Below are positions 6,190 to 60,710 of a stretch of DNA of 64,000 nucleotides, piece after piece. Source of the DNA: Candidatus Chlorohelix allophototropha (GTDB lineage Bacteria; Chloroflexota; Chloroflexia; Chloroheliales; Chloroheliaceae). The notes beneath the pieces are model-generated. The model was not told where the DNA came from and searched no databases. It saw only the letters and a list, made by a program, of their open reading frames with translations. The stretch lies in NCBI RefSeq assembly GCF_030389965.1, contig NZ_CP128399.1, forward strand, positions 2,098,934-2,162,933, written 5' to 3'. Position 1 is the stretch's first letter. Each line of letters opens with the position of its first letter. A program made the translations under genes and the position numbers.

Positions 6190-7365
6190 CTAATGGGCAA
6201 CTGCTCTGCGTTCCTCACCAAAATGTTGCCGGATACCTTCCATAAATACTGAGGCGCTTTTCTCCAAATCTCTGGAATGTTGCATCAACGCCCCGCCAAT
6301 CAGCATCACGGTATCTTGACCAAACGATTGTGCCATCGCTTCGATACGGTCGAGCCGCATCCCGCCACCCGGACATGGAAAAGATGGTTTGATATGTCCC
6401 AATGTGCCACGCAATGCGATTGCGAGGTCTTGGCATTCTTCTTCGGTAACCGCGAATCTGCCTCCAGAATTTATGAAAATTGAGATGTCTGCCCCGATAA
6501 GCCGGAAGATTGTGCCGAGCAATACAGCCGGGGTCATTCCATGGGCAGGATCATGAAAATGCGTGCCGGTAAAGCTTGGGTGTGTCATGATTGCCAGTTT
6601 GTACTTACGCGCCAAAGCTCGCACAGTATCCACACCTACCAACAAGGGCGCAACCAAAATTCCTTTTATATCGAGGCTTTTTGCCAGCGCAACCTGCTGT
6701 TCAATTTCATCAAAACCGCCTGAAATCATGGGGAAGAAAAGGGTATTGCCTCCGGTCTTGGCATTTGCCTCTCTAACCGCTTCTTGGAAACGTGGTACTC
6801 GCTCAACGAAGCGATGGTATGCCATATCTGCCATACCGTGATCTTCCTTGATTATATCCAACCCACCGCGTGCATACTCGCCTGCCATTTTGGCAAGTTG
6901 GTTTGTGGAAAGTCCAAGCGGTTTAAGGGCGGTACAAGCGAGCGGACGTTTGTATGTTCCAGTCAGGGCGCGTATTCCCTCTATACCATAAGCGGGACCA
7001 CCAAAAACTTCGAGTAAGGCTGAAGTTAGATCGAGCTTGATAATTTTGATACCTTTTTTAAGCGAAATGTTGCCGTAAATTACATTTAAAAACTGGGGTA
7101 TAGAAAAGGCGGTATTATCGCTGCGATAGCTGATAACCACATCGTGCTGATTTCGAGTGTGTGGAACTAGCTCAATCGACTCAATCCAGCCGACAATACC
7201 ACGCTCATGAATTTCATCTGGAATGCAGTCGTGTGGGATTTCTACGCTCTGTTCGACCGTAATATCTCTGGCATGTTCATCGATGCTGCGATTATCATAT
7301 ACAGTTATCCGGTATGTAACCGAGAATCGCTCATCGGATTCTTTTCTTTTTAAAGCCTCATTCAT
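6190..7365 (-). CDS. RuBisCO-like protein (form IV), KEDHG type
   Basis: This is a 391-residue homologue of the RuBisCO large subunit with an N-terminal domain (about 1-120) and a TIM barrel. The segment GGLDIIKEDHGMAD (residues 167-180) aligns with the GGLDFTKDDE segment of true RuBisCO: the carbamate Lys is kept (Lys173) and Asp175 is kept, but the metal-ligand Glu is replaced by His176. The KP motif near 148 is altered and lacks the second active-site Lys. Phosphate-binding Gly runs survive (PGGGM at 332-336, IGGAL at 356-360). Such changes exclude CO2-fixing RuBisCO and place it among RuBisCO-like proteins. Members with a KDDHG motif include, from memory, the 3-oxo-isoapionate-4-phosphate enzymes of apiose catabolism. 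The partner gene is a cupin, and no other sugar-catabolic genes are adjacent. The exact reaction is unknown. Confidence 0.88.
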   Translation of the reverse strand: MNEALKRKESDERFSVTYRITVYDNRSIDEHARDITVEQSVEIPHDCIPDEIHERGIVGWIESIELVPHTRNQHDVVISYRSDNTAFSIPQFLNVIYGNISLKKGIKIIKLDLTSALLEVFGGPAYGIEGIRALTGTYKRPLACTALKPLGLSTNQLAKMAGEYARGGLDIIKEDHGMADMAYHRFVERVPRFQEAVREANAKTGGNTLFFPMISGGFDEIEQQVALAKSLDIKGILVAPLLVGVDTVRALARKYKLAIMTHPSFTGTHFHDPAHGMTPAVLLGTIFRLIGADISIFINSGGRFAVTEEECQDLAIALRGTLGHIKPSFPCPGGGMRLDRIEAMAQSFGQDTVMLIGGALMQHSRDLEKSASVFMEGIRQHFGEERRAVAH

Positions 7366-9503: not shown

Positions 9504-9762
9504 GTTTCTAACAATAATCAAAAAAGGACGTAACAATTCAGCCCAAATCACAGGTATAGGCTCGGCAGTACACGCGGATGTTCGGTTCCGGCGAATTTCA
9601 GACAAGAGAACAAATATTCCTCTCGTAGCATCCTTTCAGCTTTAAACTCCTATTTCACTTTGCCGCCATACTAACTGCCTGTTCGTAAACTTACCCTTGA
9701 GCTGGTAAAACTTGCTGGCGAAATCTGCCCGCCTCCACCTTGCACCTCTCCCATCTTTATGG
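9504..9762. other. Intergenic stretch next to the ORF-less intron
   Basis: No gene is recognised here. On the minus strand this is the 3' exon side of the group II intron at 9763-10497. It contains short open frames with no recognisable product, so the host gene or site of the intron is unknown. Confidence 0.4.
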
Positions 9763-10497
9763 GTAGGGTGGGTCGCCAGCGCGGTAACTGATTACTCAAT
9801 CCCGTTTCTGTCGACCTCCCTCCAAACCACTCATACTACTTTCGCAGTAAGTGGCTTTCCCATTTTCCCTCATCTTTAGCTAAAGCTACCGATGAGTGCG
9901 GTAAAGCTAGATTTGTTTAATGCACTATGTGCTACTCCTCTTAGCTTTAACGCTGGAAAATCTAGCAGGCTTCGCCCTGTATGCGGTTTTCCCGCATTCC
10001 GTGAGTGGTGCGCAACTACCACTGACTACTACCCTGCTTCCGTAGTCTGGGGTGATATTCAGACCCTGTGGTCATAGCCTTTTTGAACAGGCTTTCACCC
10101 TCGGACTATCCCCGTTTAGACTTCAATCCAGATGCGATAGGTTTAGGTAGTCTTTTCGGACCTTGTCTTGCTATGCAAGCTGTGTCGCCAAAGTGAGTAT
10201 CTCCACCTTGAAAGGCCGAAATGGAGATTTCAGCGAGACTGGGTGTCACCATCGTTCCCAGCCGGTGTGTAGTTAACCCACACGTCCTGGACTTTAAGCA
10301 GTCTAGCTTTTACCATGCCTATCTTGTTCTGAGAAACGCTTAGGTTTGATGGAACCCTTGCTTTCCCTTTTCACATCGTGCTGTGTTTCCCCATTGGTCT
10401 TTCGACCGCCGGGTAAGATGCTGAACAGTTCCCCTACCCACAGGGAACGGGGTGTTTGATAGCCCCGCTGAGATTAAGTCCCTTTTAACGGGCGCAC
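9763..10497 (-). mobile_element. ORF-less group II intron
   Basis: On the minus strand the element begins GTGCGCCC at 10497, the group II 5' consensus (GUGYG). Domain V is a 34-nt hairpin at 9857-9824: it starts AAGCCACTTACTGC, has a GAAA tetraloop and ends GAGTGGTTT, with the AGC catalytic triad at its start. A domain VI-like stem with GGTCG/CGACC arms follows, and the predicted 3' end is CACCCTAC at 9770-9763, the same distance from the stem as in the intron at 57121-59592. The domain I part holds many conserved short stems, including an ACTACGG...GGGTAGTAGTC segment reminiscent of Ll.LtrB. At 735 nt it has no reverse transcriptase gene, so it would need a maturase supplied in trans to splice or move. 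It is not just a random decayed piece, because both ends and domain V are preserved. Confidence 0.8.
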
Positions 10498-10699
10498 CCT
10501 TCCGTACACATTGGAAAAATTTCGGGCGGTAAGGTTTTTACTGTTTTAATCGTAATTGTAGAATACGGGAAGGAAAGGAAAAGGATTCCGGGATAAAAAT
10601 GCCGTTTTGGGTTTCTCTTAGAAGACCAATTTTGTAGAATAGTTGTTCTAGCAACACTATTGGCAAGAAGGGTGAGAAGAGAGGAGCTACGAGAAGGAG

Positions 10700-12223
10700 A
10701 TGTTAGAAGTTATGGCCAGAAGCGCAATAAAGTACCACCGGAAACGAGGGGACAACTACAACGTAATTGCGGGCAAAGTGCAACATGATGCCCGTACCGT
10801 AAAAAGAGTGCTAAATGAACCTAGCGACAAGGTACAAACCCGCCCCAATCGTGAAAGTAGTGTGGCAGTCTTCAAAGAACAGATTGAAGGCTGGCTAGAA
10901 CAAAAACTACAAGTGAAAAGAATGCTGGAACTAGCGTGGGAAGATCCCAAACAGCCCTACTGTGGCAGACCCACCGCCTTCTATGACTATGTGCGCAAGC
11001 TCAAAAAAGCCAGAGAGAACCAGGCTCATCAGGTACAGATACGTTTTGAGGGCTTACCTGGAGAGTTTTTGCAAATAGACTGGGGTGAAATTCGGGGAGT
11101 GCTGTTCAGTAAACAAGATAGTGTACCCCAAACCTTCTACTTTTTCTGTGCCCGGCTGAAATACTCGCGTTTTATGTATGTGAGCTTTCAGAAAGATATG
11201 GCCGAAGAAACGCTGGTGCGCTGCCTGGTGGAAGCCCTCAACCGGATGGGGGGAGTACCGTGGGTAATTACCACGGATAATATGAAGACGGTGGTACTGA
11301 GGCGAGATGAAAAGAACCAACCAGTGTGGCATCCGGTGTGGCAGAAACTGGCACTAGAATTCGAGTTTCACCCGGAAGCCTGTGCCCCGGCCAGCGGAAA
11401 CCAGAAAGGTGCCGTAGAAAATTTGGTAAAGTATACCAAAAACAATTTTCTAGCTGGTCGTACATTCTACGATGCGGCGGATCTGGTAAGGCAGTTGGAA
11501 GAATGGTTAGGGGTAGTGAATTACGAGCGTACATGCGCAGCGACCGGGGAAATTCCGGGTAGCTTACTGGAAATAGAGCGTAAACACTTCAGCCCATTGC
11601 CTGCTAGTGCCCGGGATTACGGTTTATTTACCAGCCTGGTGGTAAACCGGGAAGGGGTAGTCATTTTTGAGACCAACAAATATAGCGTACCGGCGGAACT
11701 AATGGGACAAACCCTGACAGCCCGGATACATCGGGAATGGCTGAAGTTATGGCGGGGTACGGAACTGGTGGCACAGCACCCCCGTTGTTATTCCCGAAAC
11801 CGCCGCTTAGTAATACCGGAACATTACACCCAAGCTTTTGAGATCAAACCCAGAGCCAGAACCATGGTGTGGCGGGATTGGTTGTTAAATTTAGGACCGC
11901 AAGTGTACCAGTATGTGGCGGTAATCTGTCGACGGCAAAGAGCCACCATGAGTGAACAAATCCACCAACTATACGCGCTGGCCCAGCAGGTAGGGCTGGA
12001 AGAATTCCAGGCGGCGGTGGAATTGGCAACGGAACAACAGCTTTACGGGGCGGAATATCTCAAGGGTTTATTACTCAAGCCAGCGGGTTCAGGCAGTAAT
12101 GCCGCTACCCTCAAGCCCACTCAACCAGCGGTGGAACGGCTACTCAGTGAATACGAACCACTGGTGGCCAACCGTTTTTCGGCCATACCTGAGGAAAATG
12201 AAATAGAAAGGGCGGTGGGATGA
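10700..12223 (+). CDS. istA: IS21 transposase IstA
   Basis: This is a 507-residue DDE transposase of the IS21 family. The N-terminal region (about 1-50) is helix-turn-helix-like. The catalytic core shows Asp in QIDWGE, Asp in ITTDNMKT and Glu in NQKGAVENLVKY. A C-terminal Mu-transposase-type beta-barrel follows (VVIFETNKYSVPAELMGQ). Start ATG 10700 has AGAAGGAG directly abutting it; ATG 10712 has better spacing and may be the real start. The gene is intact and overlaps istB by ATGA, so the two are translated together. Confidence 0.93.
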   Translation: MLEVMARSAIKYHRKRGDNYNVIAGKVQHDARTVKRVLNEPSDKVQTRPNRESSVAVFKEQIEGWLEQKLQVKRMLELAWEDPKQPYCGRPTAFYDYVRKLKKARENQAHQVQIRFEGLPGEFLQIDWGEIRGVLFSKQDSVPQTFYFFCARLKYSRFMYVSFQKDMAEETLVRCLVEALNRMGGVPWVITTDNMKTVVLRRDEKNQPVWHPVWQKLALEFEFHPEACAPASGNQKGAVENLVKYTKNNFLAGRTFYDAADLVRQLEEWLGVVNYERTCAATGEIPGSLLEIERKHFSPLPASARDYGLFTSLVVNREGVVIFETNKYSVPAELMGQTLTARIHREWLKLWRGTELVAQHPRCYSRNRRLVIPEHYTQAFEIKPRARTMVWRDWLLNLGPQVYQYVAVICRRQRATMSEQIHQLYALAQQVGLEEFQAAVELATEQQLYGAEYLKGLLLKPAGSGSNAATLKPTQPAVERLLSEYEPLVANRFSAIPEENEIERAVG

Positions 12224-13017
12224 ATAGTCTGGAACATAAACTCACCAGCCTAAAACTGGGCAGGGTAAAACAGGTATACAGCGATTGGATTGAACGGGCA
12301 CGCGAAACCGGAATGGATTACGGGGAGTTTTTAGAAGAATTGTTAAGCGAAGAGTTGCTATCTCGTCAGGAGAACCAACTCAAAAAGCGTTTGCACTCAG
12401 CCAGTTTCCCTTTTGAAGCCAGCCTGGAACAATTCGATTTCAGTCGCCACCCGGAACTGAAGCGCAGCGTGATTTTACGCTATTTCGACAGCAGTTTTGT
12501 AGAAAAAGCTGGGAATTTACTCCTAATCGGGGCAAGTGGGCTTGGGAAAACCCATCTTTCGATTGCAGCCGGAATTAAGATGGTGCAGTTGGGTTACACC
12601 GTAAAGTTCATTACGGCTCAACAACTGGCGAACCAAGTGATTGCGGCTAGCACTCGCCAGGAAATAGCCAGGATTTTAGAGCCGCTTTTGAAATGTCAGG
12701 TGTTGGTATTAGACGAACTGGGCTATTTACCGATGGACGCACGTGTAGGTCCGGCCTTATATGAGCTGATCAGCGGACGTTACCTCAGAGGTGCTACGAT
12801 CATTACCAGTAACAAAAGCCTTTCTAACTGGGGCGAACTGATCGAGGGTGGTGATACTGCCTTGATGGTGGCGATTATTGACCGTTTATTGCATCACGGA
12901 GAAGTTTTTTATTTAAGAGGTAGCAGTTACCGCACTTTAGGAAAGGAGAGTTACGGCTTAGAGCGTCGGCAACTTCCACCAGAAGAAAAGAAACCGGAAG
13001 CGGGAACTGGTTCTTAA
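12220..13017 (+). CDS. istB: IS21 helper ATPase IstB
   Basis: This is a 265-residue AAA+ ATPase of the DnaC/IstB type that helps IstA choose targets and assemble on the ends. Walker A is IGASGLGKTH (around residue 103) and Walker B is VLVLDELGYLPMD; the arginine-finger region follows as RYLRGATIITSNKSLSNWG. Length is typical. The start ATG overlaps the istA stop (ATGA), and the gene looks intact. Confidence 0.94.
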   Translation: MNSLEHKLTSLKLGRVKQVYSDWIERARETGMDYGEFLEELLSEELLSRQENQLKKRLHSASFPFEASLEQFDFSRHPELKRSVILRYFDSSFVEKAGNLLLIGASGLGKTHLSIAAGIKMVQLGYTVKFITAQQLANQVIAASTRQEIARILEPLLKCQVLVLDELGYLPMDARVGPALYELISGRYLRGATIITSNKSLSNWGELIEGGDTALMVAIIDRLLHHGEVFYLRGSSYRTLGKESYGLERRQLPPEEKKPEAGTGS

Positions 13018-13192
13018 AGATTTCAAGAGGCTAAGATTATTTCAGCCTAATAAGAGCTGGTTGAGCGCAAAAGCTTGGCTTTTGTGCGAACGCCAGCGTG
13101 CGACAGGCCACTGCCTGGAGCTTTTTCTTAAAAAAGTGGGTTAAATTCAGATGCATTTTTAGCCCGGAATATTAGGTCTTGACAACCGCAAT

Positions 13193-16066
13193 CTACAGTA
13201 ATTCCCTCAATTTAGTCCGCCCCAACTCTTCTTCCATATTAAATTGGTACCTTCCGTAAGGGTTCACATGTTCGCTTCGAGTAGGGGAAAGGTGCGGATA
13301 GTCGACTTCTTCAGGAGGTTGGTTTCCTGTTTTTAGTTGCTCTAATATTTCAGTCATATACACTGTGTTCCAGATTACTACCGCGTTGGTCACTAGGTTG
13401 AGGCAACTGGCCTGGTTGGCTTGGGCCTCTAATTGACGCTTGCGTAACTGTCCACGATTGGCAAAGAAAATAACTTCCCGGAGAGCGTGTAATCCTTCCC
13501 CCTTGTTTAGCTGAGCCTCAATCCGGTGCTGGTATTCTTCGCTCTCATAATAGCGCAAGATAAAAATGGTTTCCACAAGCTTCCCATATTCTTCCAGGGC
13601 TTGTGCCATCGCGTTCTTCTGAGGCAGGGATTGCAGCTTACTGATCAGAAGCGAAGCTGTCACATAACCTAGCTTTAATGACCCGGTTATTCGTAATAAT
13701 TCATCATAATGCTTAACAATCACACGCTGCTTTAAAAGGTTTTTAATCAGGGGTTTTAGCACCGGGTGTTCTTTTAAGCGACCTAAGCGGTACAAGCGTT
13801 GTTCACCCATATCCCGAATGCGCGGCGAAAACTGTAGTCCCAACAGTGAAAACAAGGCAAAAATAATGTGAGTGCTGCCCGCTGTATCAGATGTATGTTC
13901 GTAGAGCGGTAGTTCTGTTTCATTGTTGAGAATTTCATCCAGGATATAAAGGGCATCCCGGTCGGTGCTGACTGTCGGTTTACTACCATACTGCGAGTTT
14001 TCATCGGAGGTCCAGGTATAGAAAGGCAGCCCCTTGCCATAACCGAAATACTTTGGTAAGGCCTTGGCTTTGCGATTAGAAAGGGCTACTGGAAAGCGCT
14101 GGCCATCCGAGGAAGAAAGGGTGCCGTTGCCCCAATGGCGGGCGAGCGGCTGGTGGTGCTGGAAGTTCACCAATTTAGTAATGGCGGGACGCAACGTTTC
14201 TTCTCTTAAATACCAATGGGTGTAATAAGCCAAACGCTCTTCTGTGAAATCTGTAGCCTTTTCCATTCGCGCCAGACTGAAATTGCAAGCCTGGGTCAGG
14301 ATAGCGATATAGAGATGGGCTTTAGCCTCGGCATCACAGAGTTCATGCCCACTGGCGTGTACAAAACAATCGCTGTATTTAGTCCAACTATCCACCTCGA
14401 TCAACAGCGCAATCAGTTCCACCCAGGGCAACCTTTGGTTGATCTGGTGCTGGAGCTCACTGACCCGTTTAGGTAATCCGCTCGCTTCCAAAGAGCTAAG
14501 CACGAATTTTCCCTCTTCGATGCGAACTTTGGTCTCCTCTTTACCTAGCCGCTGCTCCAATTTGGTCATCGCCGTTTCCAATTCCGCCGCAAGCAAGTTT
14601 AATTGTTTGGCCCCATCTTCAGTAATACCGAGTTGGCGGCACACTTCCGGTCGCAAACCAGGCCACTGTTCGCGCGGAATAAGATAGGATTCGAGGGTGG
14701 CATAGCGGCGACTACCTGTCACCCAGACGTTGGCCGAGCGTAGCGCTGCCCGCAGTTCCCATAACACGGCCAGTTCATAATATTCTTTATTGATAGAGCC
14801 ATTGGGGTTCAGGACATAGTTCATCCATTTGCCAGGCACAAAAGGGAGGGTCGAGTGATCGGAAAGGTGTTTTTTGCGAGAGGCATTGAATTGGCACAGG
14901 GTCTTTATGGCTTGCAACAGCGGGGCAGTGGCTACGTTCGAGTGAAAAGTGAAAGCTGCCAGAAACCTGGGTGAGAAATGACGAATAGCCTTGTAGCTCT
15001 TTAGCAGGAAATCATAGTGGGTATTGTCGATTGGGCGCACCAACATGGTGCATTCCTCTACCGCTGCCTCCAGTGCCGCTCGAGGTAAATACTGGAAAAT
15101 AGACTCGCGCAGTTTGTCGCCCACAATTTCCTCGCTCAGCACAAAACTGCCAAGAGCCTGAAAATGACGCACCTTCTCGTCCATGGCCCTGGCCTTATTC
15201 AGGCGGAACTCTTCCAAATCGTTGATGGCCCTGGAATTGGCTTCCTCCAAATAACCAATGAAGAGATCCAGCGTTTCATCGATGATGTCCTCGTAAGATT
15301 GAACCACGAAAGCCAGCAGAATGGGCAGGCGGCGTTCAGTTTTTAACCTGGACAATAAATAGGGGGTGGATTTTCGACCTACTTGGGTGAGAAACTTGCG
15401 CCGGTTGGGGTTAAGTCCGGTAAGCTGCCACGTATCCACGCCCGCCTCCCGCAGGAAATCCAGTTTGGTAAGGTTCTCAAGAATGAACTTGCTGCTGTTG
15501 GCGGTAGCGCCTTGCCGTAACCATTCCAGCCGGGAACTGCCTAACTCTTTATTGGCTTTGAGGAGACCATCCAAAAAAAGAATGCGTTCCTCGGTGAGCA
15601 AAGGCGCCAGTAGTCGGTAGGTTTCGAGGGTGGCTTTTTCTCTGGCGCTGTCCACCAACTGCGCCAGACGGGTAATCCCTGGACGAACCACTTTAGCGGT
15701 GTGGAGTTTCTGGGTTGCTAGACCCAAGAGAGTAATCGGTCTGTCATGTTCCAGCGCCCGCTTGAGCAGCCATTCCGCCAATTCTTTCAAATCATTCTCG
15801 GTGGCTTCTCGGTAACCCAGGTATTCCTGCACCTCGCGGGTATGCTGGGTGCGAGTTTTATCACGCTGCCCATAATTGGCTAAAACCTGCGGCTCTACTC
15901 CTACTTGTCCGGCCAGGTAGCTGACGATCGAAGCCGGAACCGTTTGCAAGTCATTGGGACAAAAGCCCAGGTAGCGTAAAGCCGTCAGTTGCAGAGCCCA
16001 GCCGAGCTTATTCTCATCACCCCGATGTTGTTTGATTTGGATATGATCCGCTTCGGTGTAGTAGAC
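13193..16066 (-). pseudogene. tnpA: Tn3-family transposase, N-terminally truncated
   Basis: This is a long minus-strand frame of a Tn3-family DDE transposase. Catalytic features are visible: Asp in SSSDGQRFPVALSNRKAK, Asp in YEHTSDTAGSTHIIFALF and Glu in the C-terminal part. The frame remains open upstream of the first plausible start (TTG 15949) to about 16066 and reads YYTEADHIQIKQHRGDENK then LGWALQLTALRYLGF, which matches the normal N-terminal domain of TnpA. The first roughly 40-45 residues are missing, because homology stops at a probable IS481-type end (about 16067-16081). No resolvase gene or complete 38-bp Tn3 ends were found. The truncated protein could still start at 15949 (918 residues), but is unlikely to be functional. 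Confidence 0.85.
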
Positions 16067-56144: not shown

Positions 56145-57120
56145 AAAAATCACTCTCCACAATGCAGCCGTGAAATTTAAACTGATAAAGTCAATTTTTG
56201 CTCCAGAAATGAATATGCTAAAAATTATATGATATATAAACGATAATTTCCACCAAAATTAAATTTCTGCAGTAACCAGAATATGGTTAAGGGTGTTTAT
56301 GATAATTTAAAAATGGTTCTGGCGCACTATGCGTGAATCGGTGGAAAGGGTAGCTAGCTATTATTGGTATAATTTAGGGGGTAGTAATTGTGTTCTAATT
56401 CCTAGAAATAGCTAGCCTATGTTAGAAGAAATTGTTTTACCTACACGCTGGGAAATTCAGCTTGATGCCTGTAAAGAAGAAGGCAGTACCCTGCTTCTCG
56501 AAGCACATTTAACATACCAGACTACACAATGTCCGAGTTGTAGATTTACGGCGGAGCGGGTGCATAGCCGTTACAAAAGACAACCGACAGACTTGCCGTT
56601 AATCGGGCAACAAGTAAGCTTGAGTTTAACCATACGCCGTTTCTTTTGTGATAATTCTGGTTGCCCGCGTCGCACTTTTGCGGAACAAGTACCAATTCTG
56701 CTCGAAAGAAAAGCCAGGCGTACCATTCGCCAATATCATTTGCTCGAAAATCTGGCTTTTGCGCTGGGAGGTAGACCGGGTGTTCGGCAAGCTGCTAAAG
56801 AGGGTGTAAAAGTAAGCCGTGATACTCTATTACGCATTATTCGAAAAACGCCGATCCCTTTACAACCTACTCCTCGAATTCTAGGAGTGGACGATTGGAG
56901 TTACAAGAAAGGGGTCGAATACGGCACGATCTTGATCGATTTAGAGCAACATTGCCCGGTAGATTTACTAGCTGACCGAAAAGCCGACACATTAGCTAAA
57001 TGGCTGGAGGAACATCCAGGGGTGGAGGTAGTCAGTAGGGATCGTGCCAGTGCTTATGCTGATGGTGCCAGGCGAGGAGCACCAGAAGCGATTCAGGTGG
57101 CTGATAGATTTCACCTCTTG

Positions 57121-59592
57121 GTGCGCCGTATAGACGCTTGTTGGATACCTTTTAGAGAAAGGAGCGGTTGAGAGTAACAGACCGTTAGGACGGTGGCTTA
57201 CTCGATGGGGAAAACCCAGACAGGACAGTAGCATGCCACAAAACCTCAGCAGACTGAAGACGTTTAGGTCTGGTTGAGGGTGTCCTGCTCGCTATGGTGA
57301 AGCTGAATTGCCGAACCTAATCTACCAACGGTGGTAAGGAACACTCAGCGTTAATAACGTTTATCGCGCTGTCACCGAAATATGCATCAGATTACGAGGG
57401 ATGCAAAACACTCTCTTCGGTGAGTGATGGGTAATGAACCCATTCAAGGAGATGAAAGGGCACCTAAGGCGAGCTAGAACGTCTAACAAGTGGGATGCGG
57501 GATGACCTACGGGTCGCGAGACCTACGGTCACGGAACCCCCATAGTAGTCCGGGCTGAGGAAAACTCAGTACATGGCGAAGGGGCAGCCTTTGAAAGAAG
57601 GCCAGAGTTGACCCTTTGACAAAGGTCAGCAGGGTAGGTGTCGGCGAGTTGAGTATAGAAAGGGGCGCGTGATGCGTGAAGCCCGTAATATCCTCGAACT
57701 CATCCAAAAGCGCGGTACTCAAAACTTACCACTAGAAAGAGTGTATCGCCTTCTCTACAATCCTAATCTCTACCTAATGGCTTACGGTAAGATATATCGG
57801 AACAAAGGAGCCATGACGGCAGGAGCGGATAAAGAAACCGCTGATGGGATGAGCCTGACTAAAATTGAAGCTATCATCGAGAAATTACGTCAGGAGAAAT
57901 ACCATTGGAAACCAGCCAAACGAGTTTACATTCCACGCAAAGATGGCAAACAGAGACCGCTCGGTCTACAATCTTGGTCGGATAAACTGTTACAAGAAGT
58001 AATTCGCCTCATTCTTGAAGCTTACTATGAGCAAAGTTTCAGCAACTTCTCACATGGATTTCGACCAAAACGAGGTTGTCATACCGCTTTACAACAAATC
58101 TATCATAATTGGGTTGGCACAGTTTGGTTTATAGAAGGAGATATCTCAAAATGCTTCGAGAGTCTGTCTCATGAAAAGATTGAGGCCAGGCTCAGAGAGG
58201 ATATTAAAGATGAGAGGTTTGTTCGGCTCATCAGCCAATTGCTAAAAGCAGGCTACCTGGAAAATTGGCGATGGAATGCCACCTATAGCGGAGCACCGCA
58301 GGGTTCAATTCTTAGCCCCCTTTTGTCGAACCTACTTTTAGACCAACTGGACAAATGGGTCGAAACTACACTTATTCCAGAATACACCAGGGGCGAACGA
58401 AGAAGACTTAATCCACAATACGAGAAGATCAAGCACAGTGCCTATTACCAAACTTCCAAAGGGCGAACGGAAATAGGACGCGAACTATGGAAACAGGTTC
58501 AAAAACTGCCTTCGCAAGACCCTGATGATCCAAACTACCGACGTTTAAGATACATTCGGTATTGCGACGACTTTCTATTAGGTTTTATTGGCTCTAAGGC
58601 GGAAGCAGAAGAGATTAAGCGAAAAATCGGAGAGTTTTTAAGCCAGAAATTGGAATTAAAATTATCCGAGGCTAAAACGTTGATCACGCATGCCAAAACC
58701 CAAAAAGCCAACTTTCTCAATTACGAGATACACACAATCCACGAAAACAGTCGGCGCGATACAACTGGTCGTCGTTGTGTCAATGGAAACATTGGCCTCA
58801 GAGTGCCAAAGGAGGTTGTGAAAAGTAAATGCCAGCGTTACAAACAACACAGCCGCAAAGTTTTACAAAGAACGGAACTAATTAACGATAGCGTTTTCAC
58901 CATCATAAATCTGTATCGTTATGAGTTTCGAGGGTTAGTCGAATACTACCGACTAGCCTACAACCTCCACACGTTTACCCGATTAGATGGGGTAATGGAA
59001 ACTTCCTTAACCAAAACAATAGCGGCAAAACTCAAATTGTCGGTACCTAAAATCTACCAGAAATACCAGACAGAATATGAGTTAGAAGGAAAACGTTACA
59101 AAGTCTTGGAAGAAACCATTGAAAGACCAGGGAAGAAACCGTTGGTAGCACGCTGGGGCGATATTTCACTGAAGTGGGATATTAAAGCCTCGATTGAAGA
59201 CGAGAAGAAAGTTTTCAACTGGCCACCTCGAACGGAATTGGTCAAACGACTTTTAGCGGACAAATGTGAAAATTGTGGAGCCAGCGGAAAAGCTGAGCGA
59301 ATACAAGTCCATCACATTAGAGCGTTAAAAGAGCTTGAGCGATACCCTGGGCGAGAGAAGCCAGGCTGGGTCAAAGTAATGGCGGCAAGAAAGCGCAAAA
59401 CTTTAGTTTTATGTGAAAGTTGCCATCAAGATGTAACCTATGGACGACCATTTCGACGAGTACCGAAGTCCGCGACAGGCTAGACCGATGCTGGAAAGCG
59501 GTGTGCATTGAAAGATGCCCGCACCGTTTGGGAGAAGGCCGTTGGAAAAGTGCTTTTCTTTGGAAGAGTAACTCGCTGGCGGCCCATCTCAC
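57121..59592 (+). mobile_element. Group II intron with its own reverse transcriptase
   Basis: This is a 2,472-nt retroelement inserted in the sense direction in the ISL3 transposase gene. The 5' end is GTGCGCC at 57121; the 3' end is CATCTCAC, ending at 59592. Domain V is a 34-nt hairpin at 59496-59529 starting AAGCGGTGTGC, with a GAAA loop and ending CACCGTTT. A domain VI-type GGCCG...CGGCC stem follows. The reverse transcriptase gene is in domain IV. The 5' exon end (…TTCACCTCTTG) is the presumed IBS1 that base-pairs with EBS1. Confidence 0.92.
57672..59483 (+). CDS. ltrA: Group II intron reverse transcriptase/maturase/endonuclease
   Basis: This is a 603-residue intron-encoded protein. The reverse transcriptase shows RVYIPRKDGKQRPLGLQSWS, DKLLQEVIRLILEAYYEQSF, APQGSILSPLLSNLLLDQLD and the catalytic YCDDFLLG (YxDD). 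The maturase (X) domain follows to about residue 540. The C-terminal HNH endonuclease has CENCGASGKAERIQVHHIRA and CESCHQD. The start is ATG 57672 (AAAGGGG upstream). All domains look intact, so the intron may be able to splice and retrohome. Confidence 0.94.
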   Translation: MREARNILELIQKRGTQNLPLERVYRLLYNPNLYLMAYGKIYRNKGAMTAGADKETADGMSLTKIEAIIEKLRQEKYHWKPAKRVYIPRKDGKQRPLGLQSWSDKLLQEVIRLILEAYYEQSFSNFSHGFRPKRGCHTALQQIYHNWVGTVWFIEGDISKCFESLSHEKIEARLREDIKDERFVRLISQLLKAGYLENWRWNATYSGAPQGSILSPLLSNLLLDQLDKWVETTLIPEYTRGERRRLNPQYEKIKHSAYYQTSKGRTEIGRELWKQVQKLPSQDPDDPNYRRLRYIRYCDDFLLGFIGSKAEAEEIKRKIGEFLSQKLELKLSEAKTLITHAKTQKANFLNYEIHTIHENSRRDTTGRRCVNGNIGLRVPKEVVKSKCQRYKQHSRKVLQRTELINDSVFTIINLYRYEFRGLVEYYRLAYNLHTFTRLDGVMETSLTKTIAAKLKLSVPKIYQKYQTEYELEGKRYKVLEETIERPGKKPLVARWGDISLKWDIKASIEDEKKVFNWPPRTELVKRLLADKCENCGASGKAERIQVHHIRALKELERYPGREKPGWVKVMAARKRKTLVLCESCHQDVTYGRPFRRVPKSATG

Positions 59593-60710
59593 GTGAATCT
59601 GGGAGACCATCTCAAAACTATGTTTGAGCGTAAAAGTGCTTGTTTACTCCCCAGGCAAGTTAAGACGGAGCAACTGGAATGTAGCCGGGTAGAACAAGTT
59701 GAAAACCAAGAATTTGAGCCTGTAATTCTTTCAGAGAACGAACAAAGAAGGAAGGTAGGGCTAAAACTTGAGACTGCTTTAACCACCCTAGAAAATGAAG
59801 ATAAGGAAATTTCTGCTGAAGAAACGCCACTAACCATACCAATTAGTCGCAAAGATTATTTATTTGAACATATTAAGGCACTATGTGAGGAGGGCTTAAC
59901 CCAACGCAGAATTGCCAGGGAATTAAGAATTAGCAGGCAAACTGTAAAGAAATATTTGATAGCCGAACAAGTACCACGTTACACTCCCCGTGCCTCCGGG
60001 CCAAGTATATTGGATTTGTACAAACCTTATATTGCACTGAGATAGGCAGAAGGAGTTTACAAAGGGGTACAACTTTTCCTTGAGATTAAAGAGCGTGGTT
60101 ACACCGGGTCGTGGGCACTTATGGCTCAATATCTGGCAAAATACCGATTGAATCATCCTCCGCCAAAACCACTGAAAACTGGTCGTGGAAGACCACCTGG
60201 AGCAAGTAGTGCAGAAGGTAAGGCGCTCCCTAAGCTAAAACCACAACCACTGCTAAGTGCCAGAAAAGCCAGTTTTGTAATGTTGAAGAATACAGAGGAT
60301 TTAACCGAAAAGCAGCAGGAGTTGTTGATCCATCTACGAACCTTTGATAGTGAAATAGAGACAGCTTACCAACTCAGTCAGGAATTTGTGAAAATGCTGC
60401 GAGGGCGGCAAGGTCAGAATTTAGAAGAGTGGCTGAAAAAGGTGGAACAGCAGGTGGGGCTGGCACAATTACAGGAATTGGGAAGTTTTGCGAATGGGAT
60501 AAGGCAAGACCAGGCAGCAGTGAAAGCTGGTCTAACCTTGGAGTTCAGCCAAGGTCAGGTAGAGGGTCAGGTTAATCGATTGAAAACGATTAAGAAAACA
60601 ATGTTCGGTCGCGCTAGATTCACGTTGCTAAGGGCGAGGGTATTACGCCCTACTGCGGCTTAACTAATCTGGGTTATCGCCCATATTTTCACGCAAAGTG
60701 CGCCAGAACC

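Follow-up and report, generated by a model that had tools for sequence, protein, structure and literature searches.

The window, the whole 64,000-nt stretch of DNA analysed here (C1:2098934-2162933, in a genome with replicons of 2.96 Mb, 2.45 Mb, 375 kb, 241 kb and 55 kb), carries on its minus strand a 735-nt element (10497-9763) that an initial annotation had taken for a group II intron without a reverse transcriptase (RT). Rfam detects two group II introns within the 64 kb, at 9763-9859 minus and 59494-59592 plus. The former match (RF00029, 9859-9763 minus) covers the full model with a score of 50.8 bits (cut-off 40, E 5e-7), and the open reading frames inside the 735 nt include no RT reading frame, both in agreement with the annotation. 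The element starts with GTGCGCCCG at 10497 and ends with CTAC at 9763, and these GTGCG...CTAC termini fit the GUGYG 5′ and AY 3′ rule and line up with the ends of ORF-containing relatives. Domains I-III (9964-10497) are followed by a shortened domain IV (D4; 9862-9961), a 34-nt domain V (D5; 9824-9857) and domain VI (D6) with the 3′ end (9763-9821). Domain V, read from 9857 to 9824, shows the AGC triad and GNRA-type loop (GAAA) that had been noticed before, while the reported domain VI-like stem folds with a bulged A at 9769, the putative branch point, which lies at position −7 from the 3′ end, within the 7-8 nt of the rule; the alignment places an A at −7 in the relatives too. The element is a group II intron retaining all domains, and its ends are arranged as in the second intron of the window, at 57121, as the annotation had remarked.

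The fold of the ribozyme is preserved. We aligned nine introns after taking out the ORF and derived from them a consensus structure of 224 pairs, 204 of which are formed by the window intron, a count that is favourable by design because prediction and counting used the same sequences. Specifically, 132 of the 204 pairs are doubly changed in at least one relative, and domains I-III keep 151 of 160 consensus pairs, with 103 doubly changed in at least one relative. Sliding the pairing partners by 1-3 columns cuts the pairing of the window intron to 33-46%. On this modelled six-domain fold, so many compensatory changes would be hard to explain without constraint.

A whole-genome search revealed relatives of the window intron in two neighbouring genera, together with fragments in its own genome. 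The ORF-containing relatives in the same bacterial family share 62-69% core identity with the window intron and encode RTs of 610-618 aa (L021, 611 aa, and L022, 618 aa, both in G002; L024, 610 aa, in G003), and the whole-core phylogeny puts the window intron with L021. Among solved structures, these RTs are closest to LtrA, which is encoded by the IIA intron Ll.LtrB of Lactococcus lactis (E 6e-126 for the L021 RT). The likeness to Ll.LtrB extends to a full-length match between the relatives' RT and LtrA, to a delta position adjoining EBS1 and to an ORF start in D4a; the window intron differs in that the RT ORF is deleted. Judged by the LtrA-like RTs of its relatives and by its delta pairing, the window intron is group IIA-like, of the LtrA/mitochondrial-like (ML) lineage. 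L022 interrupts a DinD/BRO-N gene, and its excision at the aligned ends gives the junction TTTAGTGGCC C|AG AACGGC in the exact frame ...LVAQNGDPRKP..., a restoration that validates the ends assigned to the window intron. The same site in a BRO-N gene holds, in the genome of the window intron, the 265-nt 5′ end of another intron from this lineage (L015:1958-2222, C4:102957), which is cut off after these first 265 nt and followed by transposase genes. A further fragment of 59 nt (L016:3416-3474, C3:235415), comprising D6 and the 3′ end, is 93% identical to the window intron and is possibly a 5′-truncated insertion product.

Domain IV holds the trace of a lost ORF. In the window intron it consists of a 7-bp basal stem (ATTTTCC/GGAAAAT), D4a with the hairpin GCACATAGTGC (9932-9922) and a D4b stem (9896-9869), at the place where the relatives carry an RT of about 611 aa. 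The relatives' ORF begins inside D4a (MKEEHIV...) and stops just 5′ of D5. In the frame of that ORF the window intron reads TAG CAC ATA GTG CAT TAA, the stretch kept being GAGGAGTAG CAC ATA GTG CAT TAA.... Because D4 retains remnants of both the start and the end of the relatives' ORF, the sequence comparison identifies the window intron as ORF-deleted, with the body of the RT ORF removed from D4b. The earlier label of an ORF-less intron therefore stands as regards the absence of an RT inside, and does not stand if taken to mean primitively ORF-less. LtrA-type proteins bind D4a, and the D4a hairpin kept here is likely the maturase-binding site. The window intron belongs to a known minority of bacterial introns that lost the RT gene by deletion; the annotation called compact ORF-less introns uncommon, which is right in that they are a minority, but they are not exotic, as 281 of 2,381 introns in representative genomes lack an intron-encoded protein (PMC8919778).

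The site of insertion lies among mobile elements. A 36-nt repeat (10498-10533 minus), which is probably a mobile-element tip, makes up the 5′ exon, and the 3′ exon consists of the 3′ end of an element with an IS6/IS240-type transposase (9583-9761 minus, 96% identical to C1:985316). The intron ends can be joined to an intron-free site, in that about 36 nt of 5′ exon and the first 2 nt of 3′ exon align with intron-free copies at C5:15043 and C2:660591, a short stretch of evidence. Beside the 5′ exon, an IS21-family element (istA, istB; 10557-13197 plus), present in at least seven more full-length genome copies, ends 59 nt upstream of the intron. The window intron thus sits amid mobile-element debris. 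Since each exon is the end of a mobile element, we rejected the idea that splicing at this site restores a gene. Nor is the intron likely to have a role in the glgB-like gene downstream of it, since a near-consensus promoter (9503-9475 minus, 11/12) separates the two. Elsewhere in the genome, a degenerate domain V (L018:3977-4054 minus, C2:660976; 39 bits) lies about 360 nt from an intron-free 5′ exon repeat and also near an ISAzo13 transposase gene. In the window itself, 6190-7365 minus encodes a 391-aa protein of the RuBisCO large-chain family, with a cupin gene adjacent.

The guide sequences of the window intron match its exons. EBS1 (CCTTTC, 10210-10215 minus), in a hairpin loop, pairs at six of six positions with IBS1 (GGAAGG, 10498-10503 minus), the final six bases of the 5′ exon, and EBS2 (CTACACA, 10266-10272 minus) pairs at six of seven with IBS2 (TGTGTAC, 10504-10510 minus). 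In addition, the delta G at 10216 forms a G-C pair with the delta-prime C with which the 3′ exon begins. The insertion target reads TGTGTACGGAAGG|C, and the joined exons are predicted to read GGAAGG|CCATAAAG. The homologous positions of L021 pair at EBS1 (6/6), EBS2 (7/7) and delta, and those of L024 and L022 pair at EBS1 and delta, each relative having a different exon. An equally good EBS1 plus EBS2 fit occurs at just 5 of 127,979 window positions (both strands), two of them with delta. Since EBS1, EBS2 and delta all pair with the flanking exons, the window intron sits at a genuine target site for its lineage.

The intron lost its RT through deletion of the D4b loop and kept the D4a hairpin and a complete ribozyme; we consider it probable that it moved as an ORF-less RNA with the RT of a sister intron acting in trans. 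In this scheme the RT of an ORF-containing sister would have served the ORF-less RNA in trans, both in splicing it and in carrying it, and the RNA would have reverse spliced into GTGTAC-GGAAGG|C at the mobile-element tip, with its own EBS1, EBS2 and delta as guides.

An argument for movement after the loss comes from a second ORF-less intron, L023 (737 nt), in another genus (Chloroflexi bacterium 54-19, G003, contig MKTJ01000083.1). In D4a, the window intron and L023 agree at 60 of 89 aligned columns, as against 34-42 for the ORF-containing relatives, and 17 columns are exclusive to their D4s, which also have in common two in-frame stops and an insertion of 3 nt. Common descent of the two D4s is favoured by these characters, not proven. 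Given a D4 homologous to one in another genus, the ORF deletion is probably older than the insertion at the window site, and a deletion older than the insertion would imply movement with an RT acting in trans.

Outside D4, the core separates the two introns. The whole-core phylogeny puts L023 with Ktedonobacterial introns, and grouping L023 and the window intron in one ORF-less clade is rejected on the whole core (p 0.003). By domain, D4 joins the two introns and D5-D6, the chief seat of the conflict, separates them, with D1 and D2-D3 undecided, so the common short D4 requires recombination or convergence. A tentative reading, which we hold to be rather unlikely, is that an ORF-less D4 module has passed between ribozyme cores: the short derived D4 is common to both introns and their D5-D6 ancestry differs, and ORF-less introns may arise by recombination that swaps in an ORF-free, maturase-binding domain, and may then persist across genera after the cognate RT is gone. 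L023 pairs poorly with its own exons (EBS1 5/6, EBS2 3/7). A D4-D5 covariance model built on the window intron and L023 found no third strong match among 158 genomes from the class and 400 from the phylum, the next best hit scoring 60 bits versus 193-197 for the two introns. A 17-base D4a pattern matched 45 times in genome contigs and three times in viral contigs; blastn of both ORF-less introns against these contigs returned one homologue, which was L023 again (L107), and otherwise just two marginal matches that covered about 25 nt at the pattern. A distant blastn search of a plasmid collection gave no match.

The best-surviving alternative is that the intron arrived with its RT and lost the ORF after insertion, leaving a relic, perhaps capable of splicing, that never moved in ORF-less form. 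The genome contains one full-length copy and not several, and hence no direct sign of recent spread; this single copy, the other relics of the lineage at C4:102957 (265 nt) and C3:235415 (59 nt), and a nearest core relative, L021, that contains an ORF all agree with loss in place. The D4 characters held in common with L023 in another genus speak against it, and we regard loss in place as rather unlikely.

The helper question has to be put to the present genome, which encodes two types of RT. One belongs to the ORF-containing intron at 57121-59592 plus (RT 57669-59483), which the annotation proposed as a candidate helper; the other is a single RT on C4. It is improbable, in our judgement, that the 57121 RT actively helps the window intron today. 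That intron is intact, has three identical copies and a full-length RT, and its RT is the closer of the two types; however, it is only 38-40% identical to the lineage RT (30% for the C4 RT), blastn finds no similarity between the two intron RNAs, a nucleotide alignment of them had no usable overlap, D4a is different, and EBS1, compared by eye, apparently differs as well. Trans action in T. elongatus, moreover, involved RTs 84-100% identical to one another (PMC2882425). The proposal of the 57121 intron as helper is therefore doubtful. With RT types only 40% and 30% identical and the C4 copy of the lineage cut off, the cognate RT seems, on sequence grounds, to have been lost from the genome, which would leave the window intron with no good helper today and makes its present mobility doubtful. 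The weakest alternative, a self-sufficient ribozyme in no need of protein, has the precedent of C.te.I1 of Clostridium tetani (PMC4424553), a conserved fold and the lack of a close RT in its favour, yet it would leave the kept D4a hairpin unneeded, and a matched insertion site implies the action of an RT on at least one occasion, so that we think it very improbable.

The two resident introns have their own settings. Within 56419-60045, the 57121 intron splits a transposase gene of the ISL3 type, and its further copies lie at C1:988717-991187 and C2:667815-670285 (L020, L019). Because the three copies show no difference across 2,472 nt or in the 60 nt of flank read on each side, the intron seems to be carried along by the IS. 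The C4 intron (L058:2072-4436 minus) is of a second kind, the D1D4-7 type, with a 561-aa RT, and it ends where an unrelated 656-aa ORF on the opposite strand, CHAT-like by eye, ends.

Movement of ORF-less RNA with an RT in trans, the reading we prefer, has parallels within the phylum and beyond it. The D4-D5 model search also brought up further introns that lack an ORF and have a different D4: one in G078, and families of several copies in G475 and G439. The latter two, from Ktedonobacteria, have several near-identical copies at different sites, so such forms spread in this phylum, where ORF-less introns are, from these copies, frequent and apparently mobile. They resemble the window intron in having a short D4 followed directly by D5 and no RT, but differ in the sequence of D4, and are probably ORF losses separate from that of the window intron. 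C.te.I1 likewise lacks an ORF and has no related RT in the genome of its bacterial host (PMC4424553); the window intron, unlike it, has ORF-containing relatives in neighbouring genera and remnants of its lineage in the same genome.

By analogy, the closest precedent is Thermosynechococcus TeI3. The TeI3 introns are of group IIB, and the lineage of the window intron is IIA-like. As a compact case, the window intron offers a test of functional lifetime after RT loss and of maturase specificity. For the ORF-less TeI3 introns, trans action has been shown, and the likeness to them lies in an ORF deleted from DIVb with ORF-end remnants and DIVa kept, in a small DIVa change common to the ORF-less copies and in good EBS/IBS matches at intergenic sites (Mohr et al. 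2010, PMC2882425). The difference is that TeI3 has 17 copies and the RTs of its parent introns in the same genome, whereas here there is one full copy and no close RT, the two RT types being 40% and 30% identical. What the window intron records is the ORF loss itself, with D4a retained and D4b emptied, in a IIA-like lineage.
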